Shown here piece after piece: positions 29,622 through 46,395 of a DNA stretch of 64,000 nt. The notes under the pieces were generated by a model, which saw nothing but the letters and a program-made list of their open reading frames with translations, was not told where the DNA came from and made no database searches. The first letter of the stretch is position 1. Every line of letters begins with the position of its first letter. This DNA is from Martelella sp. AD-3 (GTDB taxonomy: Bacteria; Pseudomonadota; Alphaproteobacteria; Rhizobiales; Rhizobiaceae), in NCBI RefSeq assembly GCF_001578105.1, contig NZ_CP014275.1, positions 558,001 to 622,000 on the forward strand. Direction: 5' to 3'. The position numbers and the translations under genes were made by a program.

Positions 29622-30941
29622 GTGGTGAGAGTAAGTGTGTTCGGCATCGGCTATACGGGAACCGTATCCGCCGCCTGCCTTGCCGAACAGGGCCATGAGG
29701 TGATCGCCGTCGACATCGATCCGGCCAAGGTCGAGGCGATCAACGAGGGCAAGAGCCCGATCGTCGAGGAGGGGCTCGCCGAACTTGTTTCGTCCAATCG
29801 CAAGGACGGCCGGCTTTCGGCAACGACGGATATCGCGGCGGCCGTCGCCTCCAGCGACGTTTCGATCGTCTGCGTCGGCACCCCGAGCGAGCCGAACGGC
29901 GCCATCGGCCTGTCCCAGGTGAAGGCCCTCTGCACCGCGATCGGCAAGGCGATTGCCGAAAAGCCGGACTTCCACAGCATCGTCATGCGCTCCACGCTGG
30001 TGCCGGGCACGATGGAAACCGTCTGTGTGCCGGAACTCGAGCGCGCCTCCGGGCTTGTCGCCGGCAAGTCCTTTGGCGTCGGCTATTTTCCCGAATTCCT
30101 CAGGGAGGGCTCGGCGATCAAGGACTATTTCGAGCCCTGCCTCGTTGTTTACGGTTCGATGGACGAGAAGACGCAGGCCGTGCTGGCCGGCTTCAATGCT
30201 TCCTTTGCGGTGGAGCATCACGCCGTTGATATGAAGACCGCCGAGATGATCAAATATACCAGCAACAGCTGGCGCGCGGCCAAGATCACCTTCGCCAACG
30301 AGATCGGCAACATCGCCAAGAGCGTCGGCGTCGACGGCCAGAAGGTGATGAAGATCCTCTGCTCCGACGACAAGATCTCCATGTCGCCCTATTTCCTGCG
30401 TCCCGGCTTCGCCTTCGGCGGGTCCTGCCTGCCCAAGGATGTGCGGGCCCTCAGGTTTCTGGCGGATGAAAAGGGCGTCGGCGCACCGCTTCTCGACGGT
30501 ATCATGGCGGCAAACGAAAACCAGGTGGCTCGCGCCGAGGCGTTGGTGCGCAGGTTTGCGGGCAGGACCGTGGGCATGGTCGGCGTCAGCTTCAAGCCGG
30601 CGACCGACGACCTCAGGGAAAGCCCGCTCGCCGCGCTCGCGAAACGGCTGATCGACGCCGGATACGGCATCAGGATCTATGACCCCTTTGTGAAATCGGC
30701 CTTTGATGACAGAATGGCCGGCGCTGGCCGCGGCAATGACAAGGTCGAAAATCTCGCGGAAAAGCTGGTCGGGAATATCTCGGACCTGATAGCGCTGTCA
30801 GATATCATCGTCGTCGGTCATCGCTATGAAGAGGCCGTCGCTCCGCTTTCCGCGATTTTGGGGCAGAAGCCGATGGTGGACCTGACGCGCGTGGAAGCGG
30901 GCAGGGTCTCGGGCCCGGCCTATGAAGGAATCTGCTGGTAG
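29622..30941 (+). CDS. algD: GDP-mannose 6-dehydrogenase
   Basis: A 439-residue UDP-glucose/GDP-mannose dehydrogenase closely resembling AlgD. The NAD Rossmann motif is FGIGYTGTVSAACLAEQG (about 7-24), with VDIDPAKVEAIN after it. The conserved PEFLREGSAIKDYF follows, and FGGSCLPKD carries the catalytic cysteine at residue 269, close to C268 of Pseudomonas AlgD. It makes GDP-mannuronate, the alginate precursor, in the cytoplasm. The GTG start at 29622 is taken because AGGGGG lies just before it. It is the first gene of the alginate-like operon (29622-42632). Confidence 0.92.
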   Translation: MVRVSVFGIGYTGTVSAACLAEQGHEVIAVDIDPAKVEAINEGKSPIVEEGLAELVSSNRKDGRLSATTDIAAAVASSDVSIVCVGTPSEPNGAIGLSQVKALCTAIGKAIAEKPDFHSIVMRSTLVPGTMETVCVPELERASGLVAGKSFGVGYFPEFLREGSAIKDYFEPCLVVYGSMDEKTQAVLAGFNASFAVEHHAVDMKTAEMIKYTSNSWRAAKITFANEIGNIAKSVGVDGQKVMKILCSDDKISMSPYFLRPGFAFGGSCLPKDVRALRFLADEKGVGAPLLDGIMAANENQVARAEALVRRFAGRTVGMVGVSFKPATDDLRESPLAALAKRLIDAGYGIRIYDPFVKSAFDDRMAGAGRGNDKVENLAEKLVGNISDLIALSDIIVVGHRYEEAVAPLSAILGQKPMVDLTRVEAGRVSGPAYEGICW

Positions 30942-30949
30942 GAAAGACT

Positions 30950-32416
30950 GTGTATCATCTTCTGTACCTGCTTGTGTGTTTGAATATCGGGCTGTTCGCG
31001 GCGCCTGAAGTCGTGGGCCAGTCCACGGGGCTGGCGCTCACCATCGGCACGCTCGGCGTCTGGCGCTATTCCTGGGCGCTCATCAACTTCATCAGGGCGA
31101 AGATCTATCTCCACATTGTCTTTCCGCGCCGGCGCAAGGCAGCGGAAAGGCGTTATCAGGACCAGAAGTGGCGGGCGCACGCGTTCTTCCTGGTGACCAC
31201 CTACAAGATCGATCCGTCGATCACGGGGCCGGTCTACCGTTCGATCTTCGACGCGGCGGCGCGATCGCAAGGCGGCGCGACGATCGTCTCCTCCGTCGTC
31301 GATGCCAGCGATGTCCGGCTGATCAAGGCGATCTTCGCCTTGTCCGATGCAAGCCGGTCCGGGCTCGTCAGCCTGAAGTTCGACCGGATCCCCGGCACCG
31401 GCAAGCGGGATGCGCTTGCCACATCGATGCGCACGATCGCGCGGCTCAATCCAGGCTGGCAGGACGTCATCTTCCTCGTGGACGGCGATACCCGCGTGCC
31501 GCCGGACGTGGTGGCCCAGGCCGCACCCTTCTTTACCGATCCGGTCATGGGCGCGGTGACGACGGACGAGGTTTCGGAGGCCTCCGGCGGAAGGCTGTTC
31601 AAGGACTGGTTCGCGCTGCGCTTTTCCCAGCGGCAGATGATGATGTCCTCCATGGGCCTGAGCGAGCGCGTGCTGACGCTCACGGGGCGCATGTCCGCCT
31701 TTCGCGGCGACCTAGCCAGCGACCCGACCTTTATTGAAAGCGTCCAGCATGATTTCATCGACCACTGGCGCTTCGGCCGCATCGACTTTCTGACCGGCGA
31801 CGACAAGTCGACCTGGTACTGGCTTTTGCAGCGCGGCTACAAGATGGGCTACCTGCCCGACGTCAAGACGGTTTCCGTCGAGACGCAACCGCGCGAGGGC
31901 TTCATCGATTCCGCCATCGTGCTGATGCGGCGCTGGTTCGGCAATACGCTGCGCACCAGCAACCGCGCGCTGGCGCTGCCGGCAAGCCGGATCGGCTACT
32001 TCACCTGGTGGTCGATCCTCGACCAGCGCATGTCGATGTGGACGTCGCTTGCCGGGCCCTGCGGCATGCTGATCGCCACTTTGGTATACAACCCCTTCGT
32101 TTTGCTGTTCTATCTTTCCTGGGTGATGCTGTCGCGCTACGTGACATGCGCGTTGATCTCAACGTTCCGGGCGAGCCGCTTTCCCATCACCTATCCGTTT
32201 CTGCTTTATTTCGGCCAGCTTGTGGGCGCCATGGTCAAGACCTATGTGCTTTTCCGCCTTGACCGGCAGAAATGGACCCGCCAGACCGCTGCCACCAACA
32301 CCGAGACCAAAAGAGGCATTCTGGCATCCGATCGATTTTCTTTTTATATGCATGCCCTTGCTGTAGGATGGCTGGTGCTGGGCATGGTTTGGCTCGTTGA
32401 TATTTCGGGCGCTTAG
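30950..32416 (+). CDS. alg8: Mannuronan synthase-like glycosyltransferase
   Basis: A 488-residue family 2 processive glycosyltransferase matching Alg8. The polymerase residues are intact: the aspartate pair in VVDASD (about 117-121), DGDT (178-181, DxD), TGDDK (282-286), and MRRWFGN (326-332) in place of QxxRW. Helices lie at both ends (LYLLVCLNIGLF at the start; LAVGWLVLGMVWLVDI at the end). It joins mannuronate units and threads the polymer across the inner membrane. Start is GTG 30950, 8 bases after the algD stop, with GGAAAG before it. Its integrity argues that the cluster does make a polymer. Confidence 0.9.
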   Translation: MYHLLYLLVCLNIGLFAAPEVVGQSTGLALTIGTLGVWRYSWALINFIRAKIYLHIVFPRRRKAAERRYQDQKWRAHAFFLVTTYKIDPSITGPVYRSIFDAAARSQGGATIVSSVVDASDVRLIKAIFALSDASRSGLVSLKFDRIPGTGKRDALATSMRTIARLNPGWQDVIFLVDGDTRVPPDVVAQAAPFFTDPVMGAVTTDEVSEASGGRLFKDWFALRFSQRQMMMSSMGLSERVLTLTGRMSAFRGDLASDPTFIESVQHDFIDHWRFGRIDFLTGDDKSTWYWLLQRGYKMGYLPDVKTVSVETQPREGFIDSAIVLMRRWFGNTLRTSNRALALPASRIGYFTWWSILDQRMSMWTSLAGPCGMLIATLVYNPFVLLFYLSWVMLSRYVTCALISTFRASRFPITYPFLLYFGQLVGAMVKTYVLFRLDRQKWTRQTAATNTETKRGILASDRFSFYMHALAVGWLVLGMVWLVDISGA

Positions 32417-32426
32417 GAGCTTGGTA

Positions 32427-33623
32427 ATGCTTGAGGAAAACCGCACCGACGACGCCGGCAACGAGCAGGAAATCCGTCTGCCGCCCGATCTGCCCGACAA
32501 CGGTCATGACAGCGACCACCCCTCGATCTGGATGCCGTTTTCGGTCTTCATCGACGGCCGGGAACTGGAGGGCGTCGGCATTTCACTTGTTGCCGCCTAT
32601 GTCGGCGGCTGGGGCGGGGCGGATATTGCCGGCCGCGATCTGATCGCGCGTTTCAGCTTCCAGTTCGACGGCTATTCGATCGTGCTGCCGATCGAGGTCC
32701 GCGCCGGTCTCGAAGATCGCCGCAGCGGCGCCTACAAGCTCGTGTTCCTCGATCCGACCGGCCCGCATCTGGCGCATCTGCGCTACCTTATGAATGCCTA
32801 TCTCGCGGGCGACCTCGTCCAGATCAACGAAGTGCTGCGCATCCCGCCCGAATACAAGAAGAAGCCGAAGCAACTGGAGCCGCCGAAACCGCCGACGGTC
32901 AAAGAGCGGCTCCGCAAGGTCTTCGGCCTGCTTTGGGTCGGCGCGCTCACCGTGGCCCTCATTACGCTGACCGTCTGGACGATCCACTACCATATCTTCG
33001 TGCACAAGGTGCCGGGACTTGCGACCGTGACGCCTGCCGGCCTGCCGCTGACGGCGCCGGAGGCGGGGCAGATCGCCTATGTCGACGGCCAGGCGCCGGA
33101 GGGCGGCGTGGTGTTCTCGCTGCAATCGGCGCGCGGCGGCGTGCTGAACTTCTCCAACCCCTGCAATTGCGACATCATGCTGACCGCCAACGGCACCGTC
33201 GGCGCGACCGTGCTTCCGGGCACCCCGATCGCCTATGTGAAGACCGGCGATGCCGGCCCGACCATCAAGGTGGTGATGCCGGACAATCTGTCGAAAATGC
33301 TGCTCTTCGGCGCCGAGGCGGAGGCCATGCTGGCTGATGGCCAGAAACTGCCGCTGACGGTCGTCGACGTGAAGGCGGAAGAGGGCGGCTCCGGTTCGCG
33401 CAGCATCGTCAGCCTGTCGGCGCCAAGCGGCGCGCTGGGCGCCGGCGACATCGGCAAGACGGTGGCGCTCACCGTCACCAGCAAGCCCTACGCCAATCTG
33501 CTGACAAGGATTCGCGCCATGCTGCCTTTCTCGGGTCGGGCGCAATCGCTCTCGCAAAGGGCCAATGACTGGCCGCTGATCGGCAATGCCTTTGCGGAGA
33601 CGGGCGAGGAGCGAAGGCAATGA
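32427..33623 (+). CDS. alg44: Alg44-like co-polymerase with divergent PilZ domain
   Basis: A 398-residue inner-membrane protein arranged like Alg44: an N-terminal cytoplasmic PilZ-like region (about 33-130), one membrane helix (VFGLLWVGALTVALITLTVW, about 165-185) and a periplasmic HlyD-like domain (LTAPEAGQIAYVDGQAPEGG...). In Pseudomonas the PilZ domain binds cyclic-di-GMP through an RxxxR motif and a D-x-S-x-x-G loop. Here the N-terminal arginines are absent (DSDHPSIWMPFSV takes their place) and the loop reads GISLVA. It probably still scaffolds the synthase but may not sense cyclic-di-GMP. It overlaps algA as ATGA. Confidence 0.82.
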   Translation: MLEENRTDDAGNEQEIRLPPDLPDNGHDSDHPSIWMPFSVFIDGRELEGVGISLVAAYVGGWGGADIAGRDLIARFSFQFDGYSIVLPIEVRAGLEDRRSGAYKLVFLDPTGPHLAHLRYLMNAYLAGDLVQINEVLRIPPEYKKKPKQLEPPKPPTVKERLRKVFGLLWVGALTVALITLTVWTIHYHIFVHKVPGLATVTPAGLPLTAPEAGQIAYVDGQAPEGGVVFSLQSARGGVLNFSNPCNCDIMLTANGTVGATVLPGTPIAYVKTGDAGPTIKVVMPDNLSKMLLFGAEAEAMLADGQKLPLTVVDVKAEEGGSGSRSIVSLSAPSGALGAGDIGKTVALTVTSKPYANLLTRIRAMLPFSGRAQSLSQRANDWPLIGNAFAETGEERRQ

Positions 33624-35038
33624 GCGCGATCTATCCCCTCGTCATGTGCGGCGGCGTTGGCATGCGGCTCTGGCCGCTCTCGCGTCTCAACACGCCGAAG
33701 CAGTTCCACAGGATCGGCCCGGACAGTTCGCTCACTTTCTTCCAGGCGACGGTGGAGCGCCATAGCGGCGAGGGCTTTCATATACCCTATGTCAGCGTTG
33801 GCATGCGCTATGAAGGCGTCGTGCGTGAGCAGCTTGCCGAGATCGGCCGCGCCGGCGAGCTGATGATCGAGCCGACCGCCAGACGGACGGGGCCGGCGGT
33901 GCTTGCGAGCGCCATCGCGATCAATGAGCGCGATCCCGGCGCGCTGATGGCCGTGCTGCCCTCCGATCACCTGATCGAGGGGGATTTCAGCAGCGTGCTG
34001 TTGAAGATGCGCCCGCCCGCCGCCGACGGCCGGATCGTCCTTTTCGGCATCGAGCCGGCCTACCCGGAGGTCGGCTACGGCTATATCGTCGACAGCGGGC
34101 CAAGCGCGCTTTATCCCGGCGCGCGCGATGTCTCGCATTTCATCGAGAAGCCGGCGCGACCGATCGCCGAAAGGCTGATTGCCGAGGGGCATGCCTACTG
34201 GGCTTCGGGCGTCAGCCTGTTTCGCGTCGATGTGCTGATGGCGGAGTATCAGCGGCTTGATCCGGACACATTCGCGGCGGTCAGCGAGGCGGTCCGCGAC
34301 GCAGGCCGCGGGCCCGGTCGCACCGAGCTCAGCGACGCGCCCTTTGGCCGCGCGTATGGCGCGGCGACGGAAAGCGTGGTGTTCGAACACAGCGACAAGG
34401 TGCTTCTGGCGCCGGCCGCCATTTCCTGGAGCGACGTCGGAAGCTGGCGCTCGCTCTACGAGATCGGCGCCAGGGACGGGGAGGGCAATGTGCTTTCGGG
34501 CGACGTCGTGCCTGTCGATACCCGCAACTCCTATGTCCGGGCGTCCTCCGGGCGGCTGATCGCCACCGTCGGCGTCGACAATCTCGCCATCGTCGATACC
34601 GCGGATGCCCTGCTCGTGACCTCGCTGGACCGCACCCAGGACGTGCGCATGGTGCTTGAGGCGCTCGAGACGCGCGGAACCAAGCCCGACGCAGCGCCGG
34701 AGCCGCATGAACTGCCGGTCCGCTCCGGCGAGGGCTACGGCGTCTACGCGCTCGACATCGCCCCCGGTGAAGCGGTTGCGCTCGCCCCGCTTGAAGACGA
34801 GCATCGCGTGCTGACGGTCTGCGCCGGGGCCGTTGAACTGGAGGGCGGCAGCGAGATCGGCCGGAAATGGCCGGGTGAGACCGTGAGGGTCGCCGCGGGC
34901 AGCTCCTGCGGGCTGCGAAATGGCGGCGGAGAGCCGGCCCGGCTGGTGGAGGTACGCCACGCGGTCACGCCGGTCGTGCCGCTCGGCGTCCCGGTTCAGG
35001 CGCGCCCGCGCATGGTCTCGGGCGGAGAGGCGAAATGA
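33620..35038 (+). CDS. algA: Mannose-1-phosphate guanylyltransferase with divergent isomerase half
   Basis: A 472-residue protein of the AlgA/ManC family that makes GDP-mannose from mannose-1-phosphate. The nucleotidyltransferase part is intact: CGGVGMRLWPLSRLNTPKQF (10-29), LPSDHLI, FIEKPARP. In bifunctional AlgA the C-terminal cupin isomerises fructose-6-phosphate to mannose-6-phosphate and carries a Q-x-H-x-x-R-x-E-H-W block. Here that place reads VALAPLEDEHRVLTVC, without the metal-ligand pattern, so the isomerase is probably lost. It overlaps both neighbours by four bases. A separate isomerase elsewhere would be needed. Confidence 0.85.
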   Translation: MSAIYPLVMCGGVGMRLWPLSRLNTPKQFHRIGPDSSLTFFQATVERHSGEGFHIPYVSVGMRYEGVVREQLAEIGRAGELMIEPTARRTGPAVLASAIAINERDPGALMAVLPSDHLIEGDFSSVLLKMRPPAADGRIVLFGIEPAYPEVGYGYIVDSGPSALYPGARDVSHFIEKPARPIAERLIAEGHAYWASGVSLFRVDVLMAEYQRLDPDTFAAVSEAVRDAGRGPGRTELSDAPFGRAYGAATESVVFEHSDKVLLAPAAISWSDVGSWRSLYEIGARDGEGNVLSGDVVPVDTRNSYVRASSGRLIATVGVDNLAIVDTADALLVTSLDRTQDVRMVLEALETRGTKPDAAPEPHELPVRSGEGYGVYALDIAPGEAVALAPLEDEHRVLTVCAGAVELEGGSEIGRKWPGETVRVAAGSSCGLRNGGGEPARLVEVRHAVTPVVPLGVPVQARPRMVSGGEAK

Positions 35039-36627
35039 GTGTGGTCGTCGGCCTTTGGAAGCGCAGTGCCCTGGCGCTGCTGCTGGTGCCGGCGCTTGCC
35101 GGCGCTGCAAGGGCATTCGACCGCGAAGGCATAGAGGTGATCAACCGCAACTACACCGCAATGATGGAGGCGCTGGAGGCTGATCCGGCCGACGGCGTCG
35201 ACGCGCCGCTTGATGCTGCCTATCGGCTGCTGAACCACGGAGAGGACCGTCCCGAAGCGAGCGAAGACGGTCCGGCGGGCTCGGCCGCTGAGCCTGCGGG
35301 CAGCACCAGAAAGGGTGTGGTCGGCAAGGCGCTGGTCGCGCCGATCCTGCAGCAGGTGGCGCTCGAGGTCGGCAGCATGGGGCACCGCGAACTGATGGAG
35401 GCGGCCGCGCCGTCGGGCGGCGAGGTGCTGGTCGTCAAGTCCGGGGCGTTGACGCTCGCCGCTCTGCCGGAGGCGCTCGACAGCAGCGGCTGGCAGGCGT
35501 TCCTGACCGGCGCCGACGGCAGTTATGTTCTCAACATTCCGCTGGTTATCCTTGAAGACGGGGTGCTGGCGATCGAACCCGGCGATACGCTGGAACTGGC
35601 TGCGGACCGGGGCGCTTTCATTCTCAACCTCGGCGCTCTGACGGTGACCGATGCCACCGTCAAAGGTTCCGGCGCGCGTCCTCGGGTGCCTGATTTCCAC
35701 CCCTTCATTCTGACGGCGCGCGGCGGCCGCGCGACCATCACCGGAAGCCGGCTTTCAAATCTCGGTTTCGACACGCGGCCGCTGATGAGCGGCCTTGCTT
35801 TCGGCTCCAGCCCGTTTGCGTCGCTCAAGAGCCGGGGCACGGTCAGCGACACGGTTTTCGACAATGTCCGCTCGGTGGAGGTCACCGGCATCGAGGATTT
35901 CGTCTTTTCCCGCAATCGCATCCAGAAGGCGCGCGGGATCGGTCTCAGGCTGGATAAGCTGAAGGGCGGCGCGATCCGGGACAATGTGATTGTCTCGAGC
36001 GGCATGCATGGCATGCTGGCGATCGGAAGCACCGGCCTGGAAGTGGCGGGCAATATCTCCGCGGAAAACGGGGGACGCGGCTTTTTCGGTCGCGACGGCG
36101 TGGGTCATCTTGTCGTCGCCGACAACGTCTTCGTCGCCAATGAGGATGAGGGCGTCGCGGTCGCTGGCGGATCCTGCGTCGATATCCGCGGCAACGCCGT
36201 GCTGCGCAACCGCCGGGACGGGATAAACGTTTCCCAAAGCCTCGGGGTCCGCCTTGCCGGCAATCTTCTGGTGCGCAACCAGGGCGCGGGGATCTCGATC
36301 AATGACAGCATCTCGCCCGCAGACAGCGTCGAGGTGGCACAGAACCGGTTCGTTGCCAACAATGTCGGCATAACGGCCGAACGTTTTTCCGCGATCGGGC
36401 TGAGCGGCAACAATCTCTCCGACCAGCTTCCGCTCCTTTTCGGCGGCGCGCTTCAATACGATACCCCGCGCTATCTCGGCTGGGCCCGCGCGCATGAGGA
36501 TGATCCCGGCGCCGTTTTCGAGATTTCGTCGGCGCGCGGCGGATCGCCCCTGATCTTTCAGGGCGACAGCAACGGCATGTTCCGCCTGTCAGACATGACC
36601 GGCTGCCATTTCGAGGAGATCAGGTGA
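35035..36627 (+). CDS. AlgG-like periplasmic beta-helix protein lacking the epimerase motif
   Basis: A 530-residue exported protein (signal MSVVVGLWKRSALALLLVPALAGAARA). From about residue 180 it forms a right-handed parallel beta-helix and aligns well with AlgG: DRGAFILNLGALTVTDATVKG, then repeated N-x-V/I turns to about 440. AlgG uses a DPHD motif to epimerise mannuronate to guluronate. The matching place here reads GLRLDK (about 303-308), with Asp-Pro-His replaced. Predicted epimerase activity is therefore doubtful; it may be a structural or binding member of the periplasmic complex. The gene is translationally coupled to algA and precedes the next gene by one base. Confidence 0.72.
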   Translation: MSVVVGLWKRSALALLLVPALAGAARAFDREGIEVINRNYTAMMEALEADPADGVDAPLDAAYRLLNHGEDRPEASEDGPAGSAAEPAGSTRKGVVGKALVAPILQQVALEVGSMGHRELMEAAAPSGGEVLVVKSGALTLAALPEALDSSGWQAFLTGADGSYVLNIPLVILEDGVLAIEPGDTLELAADRGAFILNLGALTVTDATVKGSGARPRVPDFHPFILTARGGRATITGSRLSNLGFDTRPLMSGLAFGSSPFASLKSRGTVSDTVFDNVRSVEVTGIEDFVFSRNRIQKARGIGLRLDKLKGGAIRDNVIVSSGMHGMLAIGSTGLEVAGNISAENGGRGFFGRDGVGHLVVADNVFVANEDEGVAVAGGSCVDIRGNAVLRNRRDGINVSQSLGVRLAGNLLVRNQGAGISINDSISPADSVEVAQNRFVANNVGITAERFSAIGLSGNNLSDQLPLLFGGALQYDTPRYLGWARAHEDDPGAVFEISSARGGSPLIFQGDSNGMFRLSDMTGCHFEEIR

Positions 36628-36628
36628 G

Positions 36629-37420
36629 ATGGCGCGGCGTTGGGAGAACAAAGGCCGTTCGGGCGTCGTCTTCCTTGCTCTCGCCCTTGCCGGCGCTGTT
36701 GTGCCGGCAAATGCGCCGGCCGGCATGCTTGCGCCCGCGCCGCTTTCCGGAAAGGCGGCGGCCCGGCATCTGCCCGTCACGCCGGTTGACGGGCGCTACG
36801 ACCGGCAGCCGGGGTTGAAGGCCATCCGCGACAAGCTTGTTGCGGATCAGCCGGTGACCACAGGTGAACTTCGCGTGCTCGCCAATGCCGGAGACGGGCT
36901 TGCGGCCTATGCGCTTGCGGAACGCTACATCGAGAGCGGCCGGCCGGAACTGAGGGCGGATGCGGCGTTTTACTATGCGGTTGCGGTAGCCAGGGGACGG
37001 AGTTACGCGATAAACCCGCTTGTCGACATCCTGATGGACGGACAGACCGTCATTCCGCAGGCCCGCCTCGACAATATCGAGAGGGCGCTGTTGCTGCAGG
37101 CAAGCCAGGGCGACCGGGACGCGGTCGACGTCCTGTCGAAATTCTACCTTCAGGGCCAGCCTTTCGGCCATCGTCCCGACATGGCCGAGGCGTTGATGAA
37201 GGCGGGCGTTTCCGGCTCCAATGACAGCGCTCTCGCCCTGCGGACGGCGCTCTGGCTTGCTTCAAAGGAGCCCGGCGATGCGGCAGAGATCATGGAAATC
37301 CGGCGCTTTCTCGCGATCGCGCTTGAAAGCCCGGATCTGAGCGTGCGTACGGCTGCCGAAAACCTGATGCGTTCCTATCCGGATCCGGGGACGGCCAAAG
37401 CGGAGGACAACGATGAATAG
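36629..37420 (+). CDS. Exported Sel1-like repeat protein
   Basis: A 263-residue protein with a signal peptide (RSGVVFLALALAGAVVPANA). The rest is helical and Sel1-like: ADAAFYYAVAVARGRS, QASQGDRDAVDVLSKFYLQGQPFGHRPDMAEALMKAG and a following repeat. In alginate systems, AlgK is a Sel1 scaffold that joins periplasmic and outer-membrane parts. This shorter version may be a second scaffold. It overlaps the AlgX-like gene by 8 bases, so translation is coupled. I do not recognise a named orthologue. Confidence 0.65.
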   Translation: MARRWENKGRSGVVFLALALAGAVVPANAPAGMLAPAPLSGKAAARHLPVTPVDGRYDRQPGLKAIRDKLVADQPVTTGELRVLANAGDGLAAYALAERYIESGRPELRADAAFYYAVAVARGRSYAINPLVDILMDGQTVIPQARLDNIERALLLQASQGDRDAVDVLSKFYLQGQPFGHRPDMAEALMKAGVSGSNDSALALRTALWLASKEPGDAAEIMEIRRFLAIALESPDLSVRTAAENLMRSYPDPGTAKAEDNDE

Positions 37421-38660
37421 GGCCGGTTTCACGATGGCAGGTCTGATCGCGGCCATTGCGGTGGGAGGCGGCGCAATGGCGCAGCAGGAGGCAAGCCAGG
37501 CCGCGCCGAAACCGCCGTTTCAGATGACCGAGGGGCAGACGGCGCCCGCCGCGCAAGCCTCGCAGCAACCGCCCGCGCAGCAGCAGCCGGCAGCGCAGGA
37601 GCCGGTCGCCGACGAACAGATCGCGCAGCACGAGCAAGCGCCATCCACGCAACAGCAGCCGGCAGAGGAGACGTCCTTGCCTGAGGCCGCATCGGGTTCG
37701 CTTTATGGCTGCACCGGTCTCGAAAGCCTCGACCCGGCCGTGCTCGAAGGCTCGAACGGGGTCTTCTTCACGGTGATCGACGATATCGCCATGCAGCAGG
37801 TCGCCGATCCCGCTCTCGTCGAGAGCATCAGCGACCTGGCCAAACGTCTGCGCCAGCGCGGCACGGTGCTTGTCTATGTCCCCGTTCCCAGCAAGAGCCA
37901 GGCCATGCCCGCCGAAGTGCCGGATGCTGCTTGGGTTTACGGATACAACGAGACGGTCAACGAGGAGATCTATGCGCAAGCTCTGTCGCGGCTGAAGGCG
38001 GCGAATGTCGTCGCGGTTGATCTGCAGTCGGCGCTCAGAAAGGCCGATCCGGCGACGCCGCCGTTTCAGAAGGTCGATCCCCTGTGGACGCCGGAGGGCG
38101 CGCGGCTTGCGGCGGAGACGGTGGCGGCGGGGATCAAGGCGCTTCCGGCTTATCGCAAGGCGAACCTGATGACGTTCAAAACCACCGAACAGGACGAGAT
38201 CTCGCGCCCGTCCGACCTGCGCACGGCGCTGCAGACCCATTGCAGCGCGCCGCTGCCGCCGGTCAGCGAGAAACGGTTCGAGACGACGGGCCAAGAGGCC
38301 TATGCCGCAGACAGGCCGTTCAACGTGCTGGGTTCGGAGGCGCCCGCGCCTGTAGTTCTCGTCGGGTCGCGCTTTTCCGCCGGCGGCCAGAGTCATTTCG
38401 ACGGCTTTCTGAAGCAGGCGACCGGCCTTGACGTGGCCAATCGCGCAAGCGCCGATGCCTATCCGTTCCAGTCGATCGACGCCTATCTGAAGTCGCGGGA
38501 ATTCCAGGACCATCCGCCGCTGTTTCTGGTCTGGGAAGTGCCGGCCGGCGCCAACCTCGCCCGTTTCGGCCCGCTGCCCTGGCTGACGCTCTCCGCCAAC
38601 GCGGCCGGCGACTGTTCGGCCGAACGCGCGACCTGCGGCGAGAGCGGAGCGGAAGAATGA
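37413..38660 (+). CDS. AlgX/AlgJ-like SGNH protein with replaced catalytic residues
   Basis: A 415-residue exported protein with a Gln/Ala/Pro-rich linker (about 25-90) before an SGNH-hydrolase-like domain like that of AlgX. NGVFFTVIDD and YVPVPSKSQAMP match the family. AlgX acetylates alginate with an Asp-x-His pair in DxHWTP and a Ser in G-T/D-S-Y/F. Here the two places read VDPLWTPEGARL (His replaced by Leu at 224) and VLVGSRFSAGG (Ser replaced by Arg at 320), while FDGFLKQATGLDV continues as in the family. Acetyl transfer by the usual mechanism seems lost. It may bind polymer only. Coupled to the next gene as ATGA. Confidence 0.7.
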   Translation: MNRAGFTMAGLIAAIAVGGGAMAQQEASQAAPKPPFQMTEGQTAPAAQASQQPPAQQQPAAQEPVADEQIAQHEQAPSTQQQPAEETSLPEAASGSLYGCTGLESLDPAVLEGSNGVFFTVIDDIAMQQVADPALVESISDLAKRLRQRGTVLVYVPVPSKSQAMPAEVPDAAWVYGYNETVNEEIYAQALSRLKAANVVAVDLQSALRKADPATPPFQKVDPLWTPEGARLAAETVAAGIKALPAYRKANLMTFKTTEQDEISRPSDLRTALQTHCSAPLPPVSEKRFETTGQEAYAADRPFNVLGSEAPAPVVLVGSRFSAGGQSHFDGFLKQATGLDVANRASADAYPFQSIDAYLKSREFQDHPPLFLVWEVPAGANLARFGPLPWLTLSANAAGDCSAERATCGESGAEE

Positions 38661-41425
38661 AGAGGCATGTCAACAGAGCCTGCAGCAGGCTCCGCCGCGC
38701 CGCTGTCGCCGGTCTCCTGAGCGCCGCTGTGTTCGCCGCAGGCGTCTCGACAGCCCGTGCCGAAAAGCCCGCGATCGATTTCCGTCCGCCCGATATCCAG
38801 CCGGCAAAGGTGTGCGCGCAGCGCAAGTCCGACGATATGCTGAAGCTGCAATGGTCGTCCTGGGACGGGGAGCGCCTGCCGCCGGGCATCGAATATCGCG
38901 ATCTCGACACTGAACTGGCGCGGCTGCGCAATATCGACGCGAACCAGTATTTCGATACCATCAAGAAGGCCTATAATCTCCGCGCCAAGGTCGATCCCTA
39001 TTACAACCGCACGGCCTATCTGCTCGACATGATCTCGCTTTATGTGAAGGCCGAGCGTTTCGCCGACCTGCGCGAGACCGGTTTCGTGGCCGAACTGGAA
39101 GCAACCGGACCGGCAGCATCGGCGGCGACCGTCAATTTTCTCGGCGATCTCTATCTCGAAGGCCGCGCCGTGCCGCAAAACGAGCAGCGCGGCCTGCAGC
39201 GCAAGCTCCAGGCCGCCTATAACGGCAATCCGAACGCCGTGCTCGACCTTGCCGAGCGTACGGCCATGGGGCAGAGCGTGGCGGGCTGGGATATGCCTCC
39301 CAAGCTCGCCTTCACCCTCGGCTTTTCCTCGCTCCTCGGCAATCTCGACAGCGGCATCTGCGAGCGCGTGCGCCGTATCGCCCGGGCCTTCGAGACGGGC
39401 GAGGTCATTGCCCAGGATCACGCGCTGGCGGAGGAGTGGTACCGTTTCGCCGCCGAGCTCGGCGACCCGGAGGCCGCCTGGAAGGCCGCGCGCTATCAGC
39501 TTACGGGCGACGGGCTCGCGCAGGACGATACGCTTTTGATGCGATACCTGACCCAGGCCTACGAGGCCGGCATCGTCCCGGCGCGTCTCGCCATGGGATC
39601 GCTTTACGAACAGGGACGGCTGCTGACCCAGGACCCGGTCGCGGCGATGCGCATCTATGACGCGCTTGCCGCCGACGGCAGCCAGGACGGACTGATCGCA
39701 GCGATCAGGCTGCAGGAAAGAGAGGGCATCGACACCGAAGAGGACGAGCAGGAATACCGTGAACGGCTGGTGAAGCTGGCGCGCTTTCCTGATGCGCCCG
39801 GCTGGCCCTTCTCCCGTCTCGGGACAATGCTGCAGGACGAATACGGCGTATTTGCCCAGGAAAACGCGCGCGAAAACCTGTTTCAGGAGGCAGCAAACCG
39901 AGACGACCCGGAGGGCAAGCTGCAGCTCGGCCGCCTTTACCTTCAGCGCGGCGATGAGGCCGACCGGCAGAAGGCGATCGCCCTGTTCGAGGATCTGGTG
40001 GCCGAGGACGGCAAGTCGCTGGCCATCGATGATCTGAGAAACGCGCTTCTGTGTCGTGCGCCGGATGGTCCCGAGGCGGACCGTTGGGCGCCGTGGCAGA
40101 CGCTCGATCCCGACAATCTTCCGGAGCTGCCGGACCATATCAAGGCCGAGGACCTGGCAAAACCCGAGATCGCGGACGCACTGGCGCGCCTGCAGGCGGC
40201 GGCGCTCGGCGGAAGCGGCCAGGCGGCGGGCCGGCTGACGACGATCCTCTCCGATCTCAAGCCCGCGCAGTTCCAGAATATCGTTGCCCACTGGCGCGCG
40301 ATGATGACCGCCAGCGCCGGCGGCGAGGCTTCCGTGCTTCAGGCGGCCTATGCGGCTGCACCCGACGATGCCAGCCGCACGGCTGTCTTCGATGCGCTGC
40401 GGGCCCTTGCCGATGGCGGCGACCCCTATGCCAAAACCGCGCTTGCGGAAATCTATCTGGCCGATGTGCCGGCCGACGAAGTTATCGATGACGAGACGCT
40501 CGAGAAGGCGACCGCCCTGATCGAGGCGGTCGGCGGCAGCGTCAAGGGCTCAAGCCTCTGGCGGCTGGACGACGCCTATCGCGCGGCCGGCAAGAAAGAG
40601 TTCCAGCCCTCCGACGCGATGATGACCGAGATCGCGACCGTCGGCGATTTCGAGGCGATGCTGTTTGCGGCCGCGCGTTCGGCGGACGAGGAAACGGCGG
40701 ATTTCTACTATGAGCGCGCGCTTTCCATCATGCCCTGCGACCTCAACGCGCTGGCCCGCAAGGCGCGCTACGCACTCGATGCCGGAAGACCGGACGACGC
40801 GCTCAATGCGCTTGACGCGGCGCTGGCGCTCTCGCCGGAACAGGCATGGCAGCAGGTCAAGCTTGCCGACATCTATCTGGCGCTCGGGTCGATCGATGAC
40901 CGGAAAGAGGCTTATGATCTTTATGTGGCTGCCTTCCGCCAGGGTTACGAACCGGCGGCATGGCGGCTGCTCGACTGGTTTTCGAGCGGCGACGGACCGT
41001 TTTACGATGAGGCGCTTCACGAGGGAGTGCTGCTTCACCAGCTGAGAAATGCCGGGCCGGCCGAGCTTTACAGCGTGGTGGCAAAGCTCGGGGGCGCGCC
41101 GCAGCGTGTCTCCGACAACGTGTTGGCCAAATTCGATCTCAAGGACGCCTATCGGGGCGCGGCAATCGCCGGAGAGCCGGTCGCCATGCGCGAGCTCTCC
41201 AAGCTCCTTATGCAGGACGGCTCGTCGCCGGACGAGGCCACAAAGTGGCTCACCGGCGCGGCGACCGCCGGCGACCCCGAGGCGATGCTGATGCTGGCGC
41301 AATCCTATGCCTTCGGCCTCGGCGTGGAGCCCTCGGCGGAAAAGGCGCGGCAATGGCTGCAGGCCGCCGCAAGCGCGGGAGACGAGACGGCGGTGACCTT
41401 GCTCTCGATCATGCGCGTACAGTAG
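38657..41425 (+). CDS. Large AlgK-like Sel1/TPR repeat protein
   Basis: A 922-residue exported protein (signal near LLSAAVFAAGVSTARAEK; no lipobox, so not a lipoprotein as AlgK is). It is nearly all Sel1/TPR-like helical pairs; examples are EEWYRFAAELGDPEAAWKAARYQLTGDG, ARLAMGSLYEQGRL, QLGRLYLQRGDEADRQKAIALFEDL, and near the end ATKWLTGAATAGDPEAMLMLAQSYAFGLGVEPSAEKARQWLQAAAS. Roughly twice the length of Pseudomonas AlgK. It would scaffold the periplasmic complex and bring it to the outer-membrane pore. No algE follows. Confidence 0.75.
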   Translation: MKRHVNRACSRLRRAAVAGLLSAAVFAAGVSTARAEKPAIDFRPPDIQPAKVCAQRKSDDMLKLQWSSWDGERLPPGIEYRDLDTELARLRNIDANQYFDTIKKAYNLRAKVDPYYNRTAYLLDMISLYVKAERFADLRETGFVAELEATGPAASAATVNFLGDLYLEGRAVPQNEQRGLQRKLQAAYNGNPNAVLDLAERTAMGQSVAGWDMPPKLAFTLGFSSLLGNLDSGICERVRRIARAFETGEVIAQDHALAEEWYRFAAELGDPEAAWKAARYQLTGDGLAQDDTLLMRYLTQAYEAGIVPARLAMGSLYEQGRLLTQDPVAAMRIYDALAADGSQDGLIAAIRLQEREGIDTEEDEQEYRERLVKLARFPDAPGWPFSRLGTMLQDEYGVFAQENARENLFQEAANRDDPEGKLQLGRLYLQRGDEADRQKAIALFEDLVAEDGKSLAIDDLRNALLCRAPDGPEADRWAPWQTLDPDNLPELPDHIKAEDLAKPEIADALARLQAAALGGSGQAAGRLTTILSDLKPAQFQNIVAHWRAMMTASAGGEASVLQAAYAAAPDDASRTAVFDALRALADGGDPYAKTALAEIYLADVPADEVIDDETLEKATALIEAVGGSVKGSSLWRLDDAYRAAGKKEFQPSDAMMTEIATVGDFEAMLFAAARSADEETADFYYERALSIMPCDLNALARKARYALDAGRPDDALNALDAALALSPEQAWQQVKLADIYLALGSIDDRKEAYDLYVAAFRQGYEPAAWRLLDWFSSGDGPFYDEALHEGVLLHQLRNAGPAELYSVVAKLGGAPQRVSDNVLAKFDLKDAYRGAAIAGEPVAMRELSKLLMQDGSSPDEATKWLTGAATAGDPEAMLMLAQSYAFGLGVEPSAEKARQWLQAAASAGDETAVTLLSIMRVQ

Positions 41426-41465
41426 ATATCATTGACCATTGGCATCGACCGAAGGGGAGCCCGAT

Positions 41466-42632
41466 TTGGCCGAATTCAGCAGCGAGCAAGAGCAGTCCGG
41501 CTTTGGACACCTCTCGAACCGGATATTTTCCAGCCCTCGCAGGTTTCGTCGCAGCCTCTTTCTCGCCGGCGCCGCTACGATCCTTGCCGCCGCCGCCGAG
41601 CCGCCCGCGCCCGATGCCGACAGCGAGGCCTGTCCCGTGTTTCCCGCTCCGACCGTGACGCTCGATTATGGCAGCCGTTACGAGGAAAGCGGCAGCGACC
41701 GTTCCGAGCTCGATGCCGCGGGCAACGCGGAGGTGGACCTGGCGCTGAAGGATGCCGATGAATTCATCCGGCAGCTGGACGGGCTCGCCAATGACGCGCT
41801 GGTCAATCCGGTGCTGGCCAAGACAAGGGCGGATTGCGTCATCTCGGGCATTGCCGCCTGGGCGAATGCCGGCGCCTTCAGCGCGCTCGAGACCGAAAAC
41901 GCCAAGATGACCTATGCCTCACGCGTCGGCGGTATTGCCAGCGCCTACCGGCAGGTGCGCGACAAGACCGAGGACCTTGCCGAGCAGAAGACAGCGATCG
42001 AGGCCTGGTTGCGGAAGAATGCCGATTTCCTGACGGAATACTGGAGCAATGACGCGCCGCCCAAGGCGAAGATGGGCAACCTCAGGCTCTGGGCCGCCTT
42101 TGCCGTGACGGAAGCGGCGTTGATCCTGCGGGAGCCCGACTATATCAACTGGGCGCTCGACAGCCAGCGCACCATTCTCGCGACCGTGGATGAAAACGGC
42201 AGCATGCCCTACGAGATGCGGCGCGGCGCCTATGCGCTCCACTACCAGCTTCACGCGCTGGCCCCGCTGACGGCTTCGGCCGCGCTGATCTGCCATAATG
42301 ACTACTCCTATACCGAAGACGAGCAGGCCGCGATCGAAAAGGCCGTCGCCTTCGCGCTTGAGGGGATTGCCGATCCGGCCGCGGTCGCGCTGATTGCCGG
42401 CAAGCCGCAGACGGTCAAGCAGGGGCTGAACGACCAGGAGCCATTCTCGATCGCCTTCCTCGAGGCCTATCTCAGTCTGGAAAGCGATGCGGCGCTTGAT
42501 CGCAAGCTCGCGCCGCTCAGGCCCTTGTCCAATTCCAAGCTTGGCGGCGACCTGACCTTGCTCTATCGCAACAACCCGGCCATGCAGCCGGGCTGCTTTG
42601 CGCCGAAAACAGCAAGGAGCGGTGAGCAATAG
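41466..42632 (+). CDS. AlgL-like periplasmic protein with replaced catalytic histidine
   Basis: A 388-residue protein of the alginate lyase AlgL (PL5) fold. A TTG start at 41466 is preferred because AAGGGGAG lies 6 bases before it. An N-terminal hydrophobic segment (RSLFLAGAATILAAAAE) exports it. SRYEESGSDRSEL (70-82) matches the SKYEGSxS block of AlgL; LRLWAAFAVTEAALI, DENGSMPYEMRRGAYALHYQLHALAPL align well. Where AlgL has N-N-H the protein has G-N-L (204-206), so the lyase histidine is gone; the Arg near 252 and a Tyr at 260 remain. Lyase activity is therefore doubtful. Last gene of the operon. Confidence 0.7.
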   Translation: MAEFSSEQEQSGFGHLSNRIFSSPRRFRRSLFLAGAATILAAAAEPPAPDADSEACPVFPAPTVTLDYGSRYEESGSDRSELDAAGNAEVDLALKDADEFIRQLDGLANDALVNPVLAKTRADCVISGIAAWANAGAFSALETENAKMTYASRVGGIASAYRQVRDKTEDLAEQKTAIEAWLRKNADFLTEYWSNDAPPKAKMGNLRLWAAFAVTEAALILREPDYINWALDSQRTILATVDENGSMPYEMRRGAYALHYQLHALAPLTASAALICHNDYSYTEDEQAAIEKAVAFALEGIADPAAVALIAGKPQTVKQGLNDQEPFSIAFLEAYLSLESDAALDRKLAPLRPLSNSKLGGDLTLLYRNNPAMQPGCFAPKTARSGEQ

Positions 42633-45198: not shown

Positions 45199-46395
45199 TC
45201 AGCTTGCTGCTGGCAGGCTGATGAGCGGATCATCGCTCATCGTGGCGATTGTCTCAAGTGTCATGTAGCGGGACCTCTGGACGGCCCATTCGTCGTTTTG
45301 CTCCAGAAGCAAGGCACCGACCAGTCTGACGATGGCGTCGTCGTTGGGGAAGATGCCAACGACTTCAGTGCGTCGCTTGATCTCGCCGTTGAGACGCTCG
45401 ATCGGATTTGTCGAATGAAGCTTTGCCCAGTGCTGCCTGGGAAAGGTCATGTAGGCGAGCACGTCCTGTTCGGCGTTGTCCATGAGCGTGGCGAGTTTCG
45501 GCACCTTCGGCCTGATCTGGTCAGCGACATTGCGCCACTGGGTGCTCGCCGCCTCCGGCGTGTCCTGTGCAAACGCGGTGGCGATGAAGGCGGAGACGAC
45601 GCGCCGCCCGCTCTTTCCGGCATGAGCCAATGCGTTTCTCATGAAGTGGACCCTGCAGCGCTGCCAGGTGGCGCAAAGCACCTTCGACACAGCGGCCTTG
45701 ATCCCCTCATGGGCATCGGAGACGACGAGCTTGACGCCCCGCAGCCCGCGCCTGGTCAGGTTGCGAAGGAACTCCGTCCAGACCGGCTCGGCTTCTGATG
45801 TTCCGATCTCCATGCCGAGCACTTCGCGCCGGCCGTCGGTGTTCACGCCCACCGCGATGATGACGGCGACAGAGACGATGCGCCCGCCGCGTCGGACCTT
45901 GAGATAGGTGGCATCGATCCAGAGGTATGGCCATTCGCCTTCGATGGGCCTGTCAAGAAAGGCCTTCACCTTGTCGTCGATCTCCTCGCAGAGCCGAGAG
46001 ACCTGGCTCTTGGAGATGCCAGACATGCCCATGGCCTTCACCAGATCGTCGACGGATCGGGTGGAGACGCCCTGGATATAGGCTTCCTGGATCACCGCCG
46101 TCAGCGCCTTTTCCGCCATCCGGCGCGGTTCGAGGAAGCTCGGGAAATAGCTGCCGGTGCGAAGCTTCGGAATGCGCAGCTCGACGGTTCCTGCACGCGT
46201 TTCCCAATCTCGGTCGCGATAGCCGTTGCGCTGGGCAAGGCGAAAGCCATTCTTCTCGCCGTAACCCGCGCCGGTCTTCGCCCCGACTTCCAGCGCCATC
46301 AACTTCTCGGCGGCAAAGCCGATCATCTCACGGAGCAAATCGGCGTCGGCGCTCTTCTCAACGAGTGAGCGCAGGTTCATCATGTCGTTGGTCAT
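45199..46395 (-). CDS. IS256-family transposase
   Basis: A 398-residue mutator-type transposase with a full DDE core: first Asp in [16 protein letters not shown] (about 177), second in [13 protein letters not shown] (about 242), and Glu in [30 protein letters not shown] (about 345). The N-terminus has the usual [23 protein letters not shown] block. Length and motifs are intact, so it may be active. Positioned centrally between perfect inverted repeats. Confidence 0.93.

Follow-up and report, generated by a model that had tools for sequence, protein, structure and literature searches.

In Pseudomonas, the alginate genes are ordered algD-8-44-K-E-G-X-L-I-J-F-A, and the same report states that alginate is still produced when algI, algJ or algF is mutated, that AlgG catalytic mutants keep their yield, and that mutants of AlgX, AlgG, AlgK or AlgE lose the polymer and release fragments (PMC3815931). 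The catalytic residues of AlgX are given as D174, H176 and S269 (PMC4148444); when its activity is compromised, alginate is made but remains unacetylated (PMC10641220), and the AlgK-AlgX complex is described as vital for alginate production (PMC9734138). Here we describe an alginate-like operon of Martelella sp. AD-3, located in a window of 64,000 nucleotides (contig NZ_CP014275.1, positions 558,001 to 622,000; position 1 is the first letter of the window). Atypical alginate operons have likewise lost acetylation or outer-membrane transport loci, and the accessible part of that report mentions neither loss of the AlgX active site nor Martelella (PMC7112194). Among the literature matches listed (titles and beginnings of abstracts, open-licence papers), there was no report of the Martelella operon.

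The operon comprises nine open reading frames (ORFs) on the plus strand at 29622-42632 in the order D-8-44-A-G-orf6-X-K-L, with neighbours overlapping by at most 8 bases or separated by at most 13, in a genome of 5.0 Mb on three contigs. A first-pass annotation of the window had described nine coupled genes on the alginate plan, and these ORFs bear it out, orf6 lacking a recognised counterpart in Pseudomonas. Homologues of AlgD, Alg8, Alg44, AlgA, AlgG, AlgX and AlgL and an AlgK-like protein are shared with the Pseudomonas operon. Unlike the latter, the window has no AlgE, AlgI, AlgJ or AlgF in the operon stretch searched, carries an additional Sel1-like protein, has an AlgK about twice as long and lacks motifs in Alg44, the isomerase half of AlgA, AlgG, AlgX and AlgL (His). 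We consider it probable that the operon is a functional, slimmed-down member of an alphaproteobacterial alginate-like branch, which makes plain polymannuronate with non-catalytic AlgX and AlgG.

Loss of the AlgX active site and of the acetylation genes

Residues were compared with those of Pseudomonas avellanae (L112), which carries the Pseudomonas genes, and for AlgA with L081; PDB alignments of AlgL, AlgX and AlgG agree with the residues found missing. The window AlgX matches the Pfam family ALGX (E = 9e-47) and reads DPLW for DxHW, with L224 in place of the catalytic His, and GSRFS for GTSxS, with R320 in place of Ser; the Asp is kept. Among the loci where AlgX was read (L031 by eye), Ser and His are both kept in 17 of 17 that carry AlgI, and AlgX is devoid of both in 12 of 12 distinct AlgI-less operons. 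The Ser and His places are occupied by Arg and Leu in the window's branch (Lys and Leu in L071), by Gln and Tyr in the Martelella genomes G297 and G307, and by Glu and Arg in L079. A search for MBOAT proteins found nothing in any of 13 Martelella genomes or in the genome of L079 and gave matches in G239 and the genome of L073. The acetylation module (AlgI, AlgJ, AlgF and the Asp-His-Ser of AlgX) was not found in Martelella, the search for AlgF covering the operon only. As judged by the alignments, the AlgX loss is the only one specific to AlgI-less operons, where it accompanies the absence of AlgI, AlgJ and AlgF; acetylation was probably discarded and AlgX retained without its catalytic site.

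The operon was also found in Martelella relatives, a close Alg8 being present in 10 of 13 genomes (own included) and missing from three. Its identity to the window is 96-97% in three genomes (97% in M. lutilitoris, G300; 96% in M. radicis, G306), 76-77% in four and 60% in two (G297 and G307). In f44, a family of the same taxonomic order (G239, G273, G149, G084), and in Roseibium and Rhodobacteraceae-type genomes, the stretches, to the extent of their coverage, show the gene order D-8-44-A-G-I-J-orf6-X-F-K-L, which is that of the window plus AlgI, AlgJ and AlgF. Operons L027-L030 (f44), L070 and L075 (Roseibium) and L073, L074, L076-L078, L080, L083, L088 and L110 (Rhodobacteraceae-type) resemble the window in gene order, orf6 and degenerate PilZ domain, isomerase half and AlgG, but unlike it possess AlgI, AlgJ and AlgF together with an intact AlgX Ser and His; in L027, the Pfam matches of AlgI, AlgJ and AlgF are MBOAT (E = 5e-28), ALGX (E = 6e-67) and AlgF (E = 1e-13), respectively. 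In the window, a single base separates algG from orf6, and algX shares four bases with algK, so that no space is left for remnants of algI, algJ or algF. In G273, AlgJ is split into two ORFs (L028:7254-8422, minus strand), AlgI, AlgX and AlgF being single ORFs there. Operons of Rhizobium, Microvirga and others (L081-L101, L103-L107) share AlgD, Alg8 and Alg44 with the window and represent a second alginate-like kind, with a very long AlgG. Nearly all of these AlgG proteins bear a DPHD-like motif, and most of the operons match the PilZ motifs at least in part; no AlgX, AlgI, AlgJ or AlgF was found in the stretches examined.

In the Alg8 tree, the Martelella rows group with f44 and Roseibium rows, and L079 joins Loktanella, Yoonia and a row from an uncultured member of the Rhodobacteraceae. 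Forcing all 11 AlgI-less rows together was rejected (approximately unbiased test, p = 0.0002), and two changes are needed; exact placements are unsure owing to long branches (L079, P. avellanae). The tree test supports two independent losses of the AlgX active site and AlgI, and the replacement residues differ between them. The two Martelella stem branches measure 0.86 and 0.93 on the AlgX tree versus 0.23 and 0.23 on the Alg8 tree, a 3.7- to 4-fold ratio, compared with about 1.5- to 2.3-fold for L079, L083, L030 and the Salipiger/Alloyangia pair, whose branches are also long. The ratio is no more than a hint of relaxed constraint on Martelella AlgX, because some short branches equal or exceed it (6.5-fold in the Yoonia pair). 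Separately, a Gln/Pro/Ala-rich N-terminal linker (37413-37700) is present in AlgX of the window's nearest branch and absent from the M. mediterranea branch.

Losses shared with relatives that carry acetylation genes

Five proteins without a hallmark residue had been taken as a feature of this operon. All five losses were confirmed by alignment, but only that of AlgX is particular to it; those of Alg44, AlgA, AlgG and AlgL are common to the aligned clade operons (Stappiaceae and Rhodobacteraceae-type relatives), including ones which keep acetylation genes. None of the 19 aligned clade sequences (ten from Martelella, L079, L027, L030, L070, L073, L076, L077, L083 and L110) has the Alg44 or AlgG motifs; the AlgA isomerase motif is missing from 17 of 17 and the AlgL His from 15 of 15. 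In L027-L030, the four related operons in which AlgL is covered, this His is missing. PilZ and DPHD-like motifs are retained further afield, for example in the operons L031, L032 and L081. The AlgA motif is missing in L098 as well, outside the clade, and its loss is therefore no clade mark.

AlgD and Alg8 had been described as active-looking, and their motifs (Cys269; DGDT, TGDDK and RRW) are indeed in place. The best PDB match of AlgD is 1mfz (E = 1e-126), followed by a UDP-glucose dehydrogenase (E = 3e-66), and by these matches it is of the GDP-mannose dehydrogenase type. The AlgA isomerase motif HHHRSEHW is replaced by LEDEHRVL. Elsewhere in the genome (G000:C1:149210), next to a phosphoglucomutase/phosphomannomutase-family gene, lies the gene of a second AlgA-like protein, whose isomerase domain is intact (PF01050, E = 1e-52; HHHRAEHW). 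Because of this second protein and the type of AlgD, precursor supply looks intact. The Alg8 and Alg44 pair of the Pseudomonas-type system is present. In Alg44, both PilZ motifs for cyclic dimeric guanosine monophosphate (c-di-GMP), RxxxR and DxSxxG, are missing (SDHPS for RQHAR, GISLVA for DLSAGG), although the predicted structure retains the PilZ fold, so that c-di-GMP would not be expected to switch the synthase through Alg44.

A profile built from nine clade AlgG sequences matches AlgG structures (E = 1e-33). The window AlgG reaches 56 of 700 bits against the NCBIfam epimerase model, far under its cut-off, and has RL-D in place of DPHD, with the following Arg missing too. Across the nine sequences, none of the acidic, basic, His or Tyr residues of AlgG is invariant. 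AlgL matches the Pfam family Alginate_lyase (E = 8e-29) and reads GNLRLW in place of NNHSYW, the catalytic His being replaced by L215 and the Trp kept at W205. Y269 and R262 occupy the positions of Y256 and R249 in the P. aeruginosa enzyme, and the K66 and Y259 places hold Arg and His. According to the accessible text on the P. aeruginosa enzyme, Y256 and R249 mutants lose activity and show growth defects, H202A has no detectable activity in vitro and behaves like the wild type in vivo, and K66A and Y259F keep about 1% and 30% activity, respectively (PMC8829089). The claim that proteins are retained without catalytic residues thus holds for AlgX and AlgG but is not supported in that form for AlgL, which is not clearly dead and which we do not call a pseudoenzyme, because Tyr and Arg are kept and the P. 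aeruginosa His mutant is wild-type-like in vivo.

AlgG, AlgX and AlgL might instead remain active through other residues on a different polyuronate and yield a differently modified polymer. The uniformity of the AlgL replacement (NLR in 15 of 15 aligned clade sequences, with Tyr and Arg kept) would fit this explanation. So would G297 and G307 (L065 and L064), whose operons lack algD and algA and whose best AlgD match elsewhere is only 31-32% identical; both genomes encode, elsewhere, AlgA-like proteins whose isomerase motif is intact, and a different sugar nucleotide may serve for their polymer. Against it stand the lack of any invariant candidate catalytic residue in AlgG, the AlgX replacements, which vary by lineage and so speak against a single new chemistry, and the GDP-mannose type of the window AlgD. 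We regard this explanation as unlikely; of the two products proposed in the first-pass annotation, an unmodified polyuronate fits best, and nothing positive was found for a differently modified one.

Proposed production of plain polymannuronate

For the preferred plain polymannuronate, AlgD would convert GDP-mannose to GDP-mannuronate, which Alg8 and Alg44 would polymerise while passing the chain into the periplasm. AlgG would no longer epimerise this chain, and with the AlgI-AlgJ-AlgF relay lost and AlgX devoid of Ser and His it would stay unacetylated. AlgX and AlgG would persist as non-catalytic guides alongside AlgK and the Sel1 protein, and AlgL may still trim stray polymer. The predicted product is a polymannuronate that is neither acetylated nor epimerised and whose synthesis is not under c-di-GMP control via Alg44. 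By analogy, the Martelella pattern follows the Pseudomonas essentiality map except for AlgE: the dispensable parts are gone, and AlgX, AlgG and AlgK are kept.

Several observations weigh against this proposal. AlgE is reported as needed in Pseudomonas (PMC3815931), yet P. avellanae AlgE had no match in the operon stretches, and PF13372 was found in none of the 13 Martelella genomes, in a search which had no alphaproteobacterial positive control and which a very divergent porin could still escape. The proposal therefore does not account for passage through the outer membrane, and agreement with the essentiality map is incomplete. The AlgF search was confined to the operon. AlgX of the window's branch also lost its C-terminal carbohydrate-binding region, which G297, G307 and L079 retain. 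L079 comes from a Rhodobacteraceae metagenome-assembled genome of unstated completeness, and its position rests on a long branch. There are just two independent losses and the coupling is not statistically deep; the correlation therefore draws its weight from mechanism more than from the number of events. With these points in mind, we put at slightly below even the chance that the structural and catalytic jobs of AlgX were separated twice in a c-di-GMP-independent polymannuronate machine with an exit other than AlgE.

That the polymer is still acetylated, through a donor that escaped recognition or in some other way, appears very unlikely. Very divergent acyltransferases can escape searches with hidden Markov models, and the search covered the MBOAT family rather than other acyltransferase families; yet in two related genomes it did detect the genes expected there, and an AlgX without both Ser and His argues against acetylation.

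Selection on the operon genes

The window operon is intact and under purifying selection. The ratio of nonsynonymous to synonymous substitution rates (dN/dS; Nei-Gojobori, pairwise) was 0.03-0.34 in 45 of 45 comparisons (nine genes, five genome pairs), with 0.14-0.25 for AlgX and 0.13-0.24 for AlgG; the ORF starts of the relatives were set mechanically and some are over-long. In the ten Martelella genomes with a close Alg8, each operon gene that is present consists of one ORF. L071, from a Martelella-like genome deposited as 'Marinicella sp. W31', has frameshifts in six of nine operon genes and in two genes upstream; since the upstream genes are frameshifted too, sequencing or assembly error is the likelier cause. 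Decay of the operon after loss of its use, already disputed in the first-pass annotation, is the least probable explanation of all and scarcely credible: several active sites are lost, L071 has many frameshifts, fewer per length upstream than in the operon, and three of 13 Martelella genomes lack a close Alg8, but dN/dS is low for every gene and the junctions are tight where genes are missing. Between L060 and L061, AlgK is just 73% identical and the other eight genes 87-99%, possibly reflecting recombination.

Features of the window

Orf6 is predicted to form a Sel1-like helical solenoid. A Mutator-family transposase is encoded at 45199-46395, some 2.6 kb downstream of the operon; of all 2 kb blocks in the window, the one that holds it has the lowest guanine-plus-cytosine content (0.557).

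Table 1. Positions of the operon genes and of selected sites in the window.
Feature	Position	Strand	Remarks
algD-like GDP-mannose 6-dehydrogenase	29622..30941	+	GTG start; Cys269 present
alg8-like synthase (GT2)	30950..32416	+	DGDT178, TGDDK282, RRWF327
alg44-like copolymerase	32427..33623	+	PilZ fold at the N-terminus, c-di-GMP motifs absent; barrel-sandwich part at the C-terminus
Degenerate PilZ domain of Alg44, residues 27-129	32505..32813	+	
algA-like GDP-mannose pyrophosphorylase	33620..35038	+	Isomerase (cupin) half degenerate, about 34754-34954
algG-like beta-helix protein	35035..36627	+	No DPHD
algG/orf6 junction	36627..36629	+	1 base between genes; algI and algJ sit here in relatives
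orf6, Sel1-like solenoid	36629..37420	+	N-terminus signal-peptide-like by eye; conserved in clade
algX-like SGNH-domain protein	37413..38660	+	No catalytic Ser/His; no C-terminal region (carbohydrate-binding module in AlgX)
AlgX D222-P-L224	38076..38084	+	Asp kept; Leu for catalytic His
AlgX R320	38370..38372	+	At place of nucleophile Ser
algX/algK overlap, 4 bases	38657..38660	+	algF sits here in relatives
algK-like Sel1/TPR protein, 922 aa	38657..41425	+	No lipobox by eye
algL-like PL5 protein	41439..42632	+	H202 equivalent is L215; R249/Y256 equivalents kept (R262, Y269)

Significance

The question whether AlgX and AlgG are needed structurally, apart from their chemistry, has been argued from Pseudomonas mutants, and Martelella seems to provide a natural experiment on this point. 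The regulation of its synthase would have to differ from the c-di-GMP model. The operon offers what appear to be natural catalysis-dead scaffolds and is a candidate source of plain polymannuronate.

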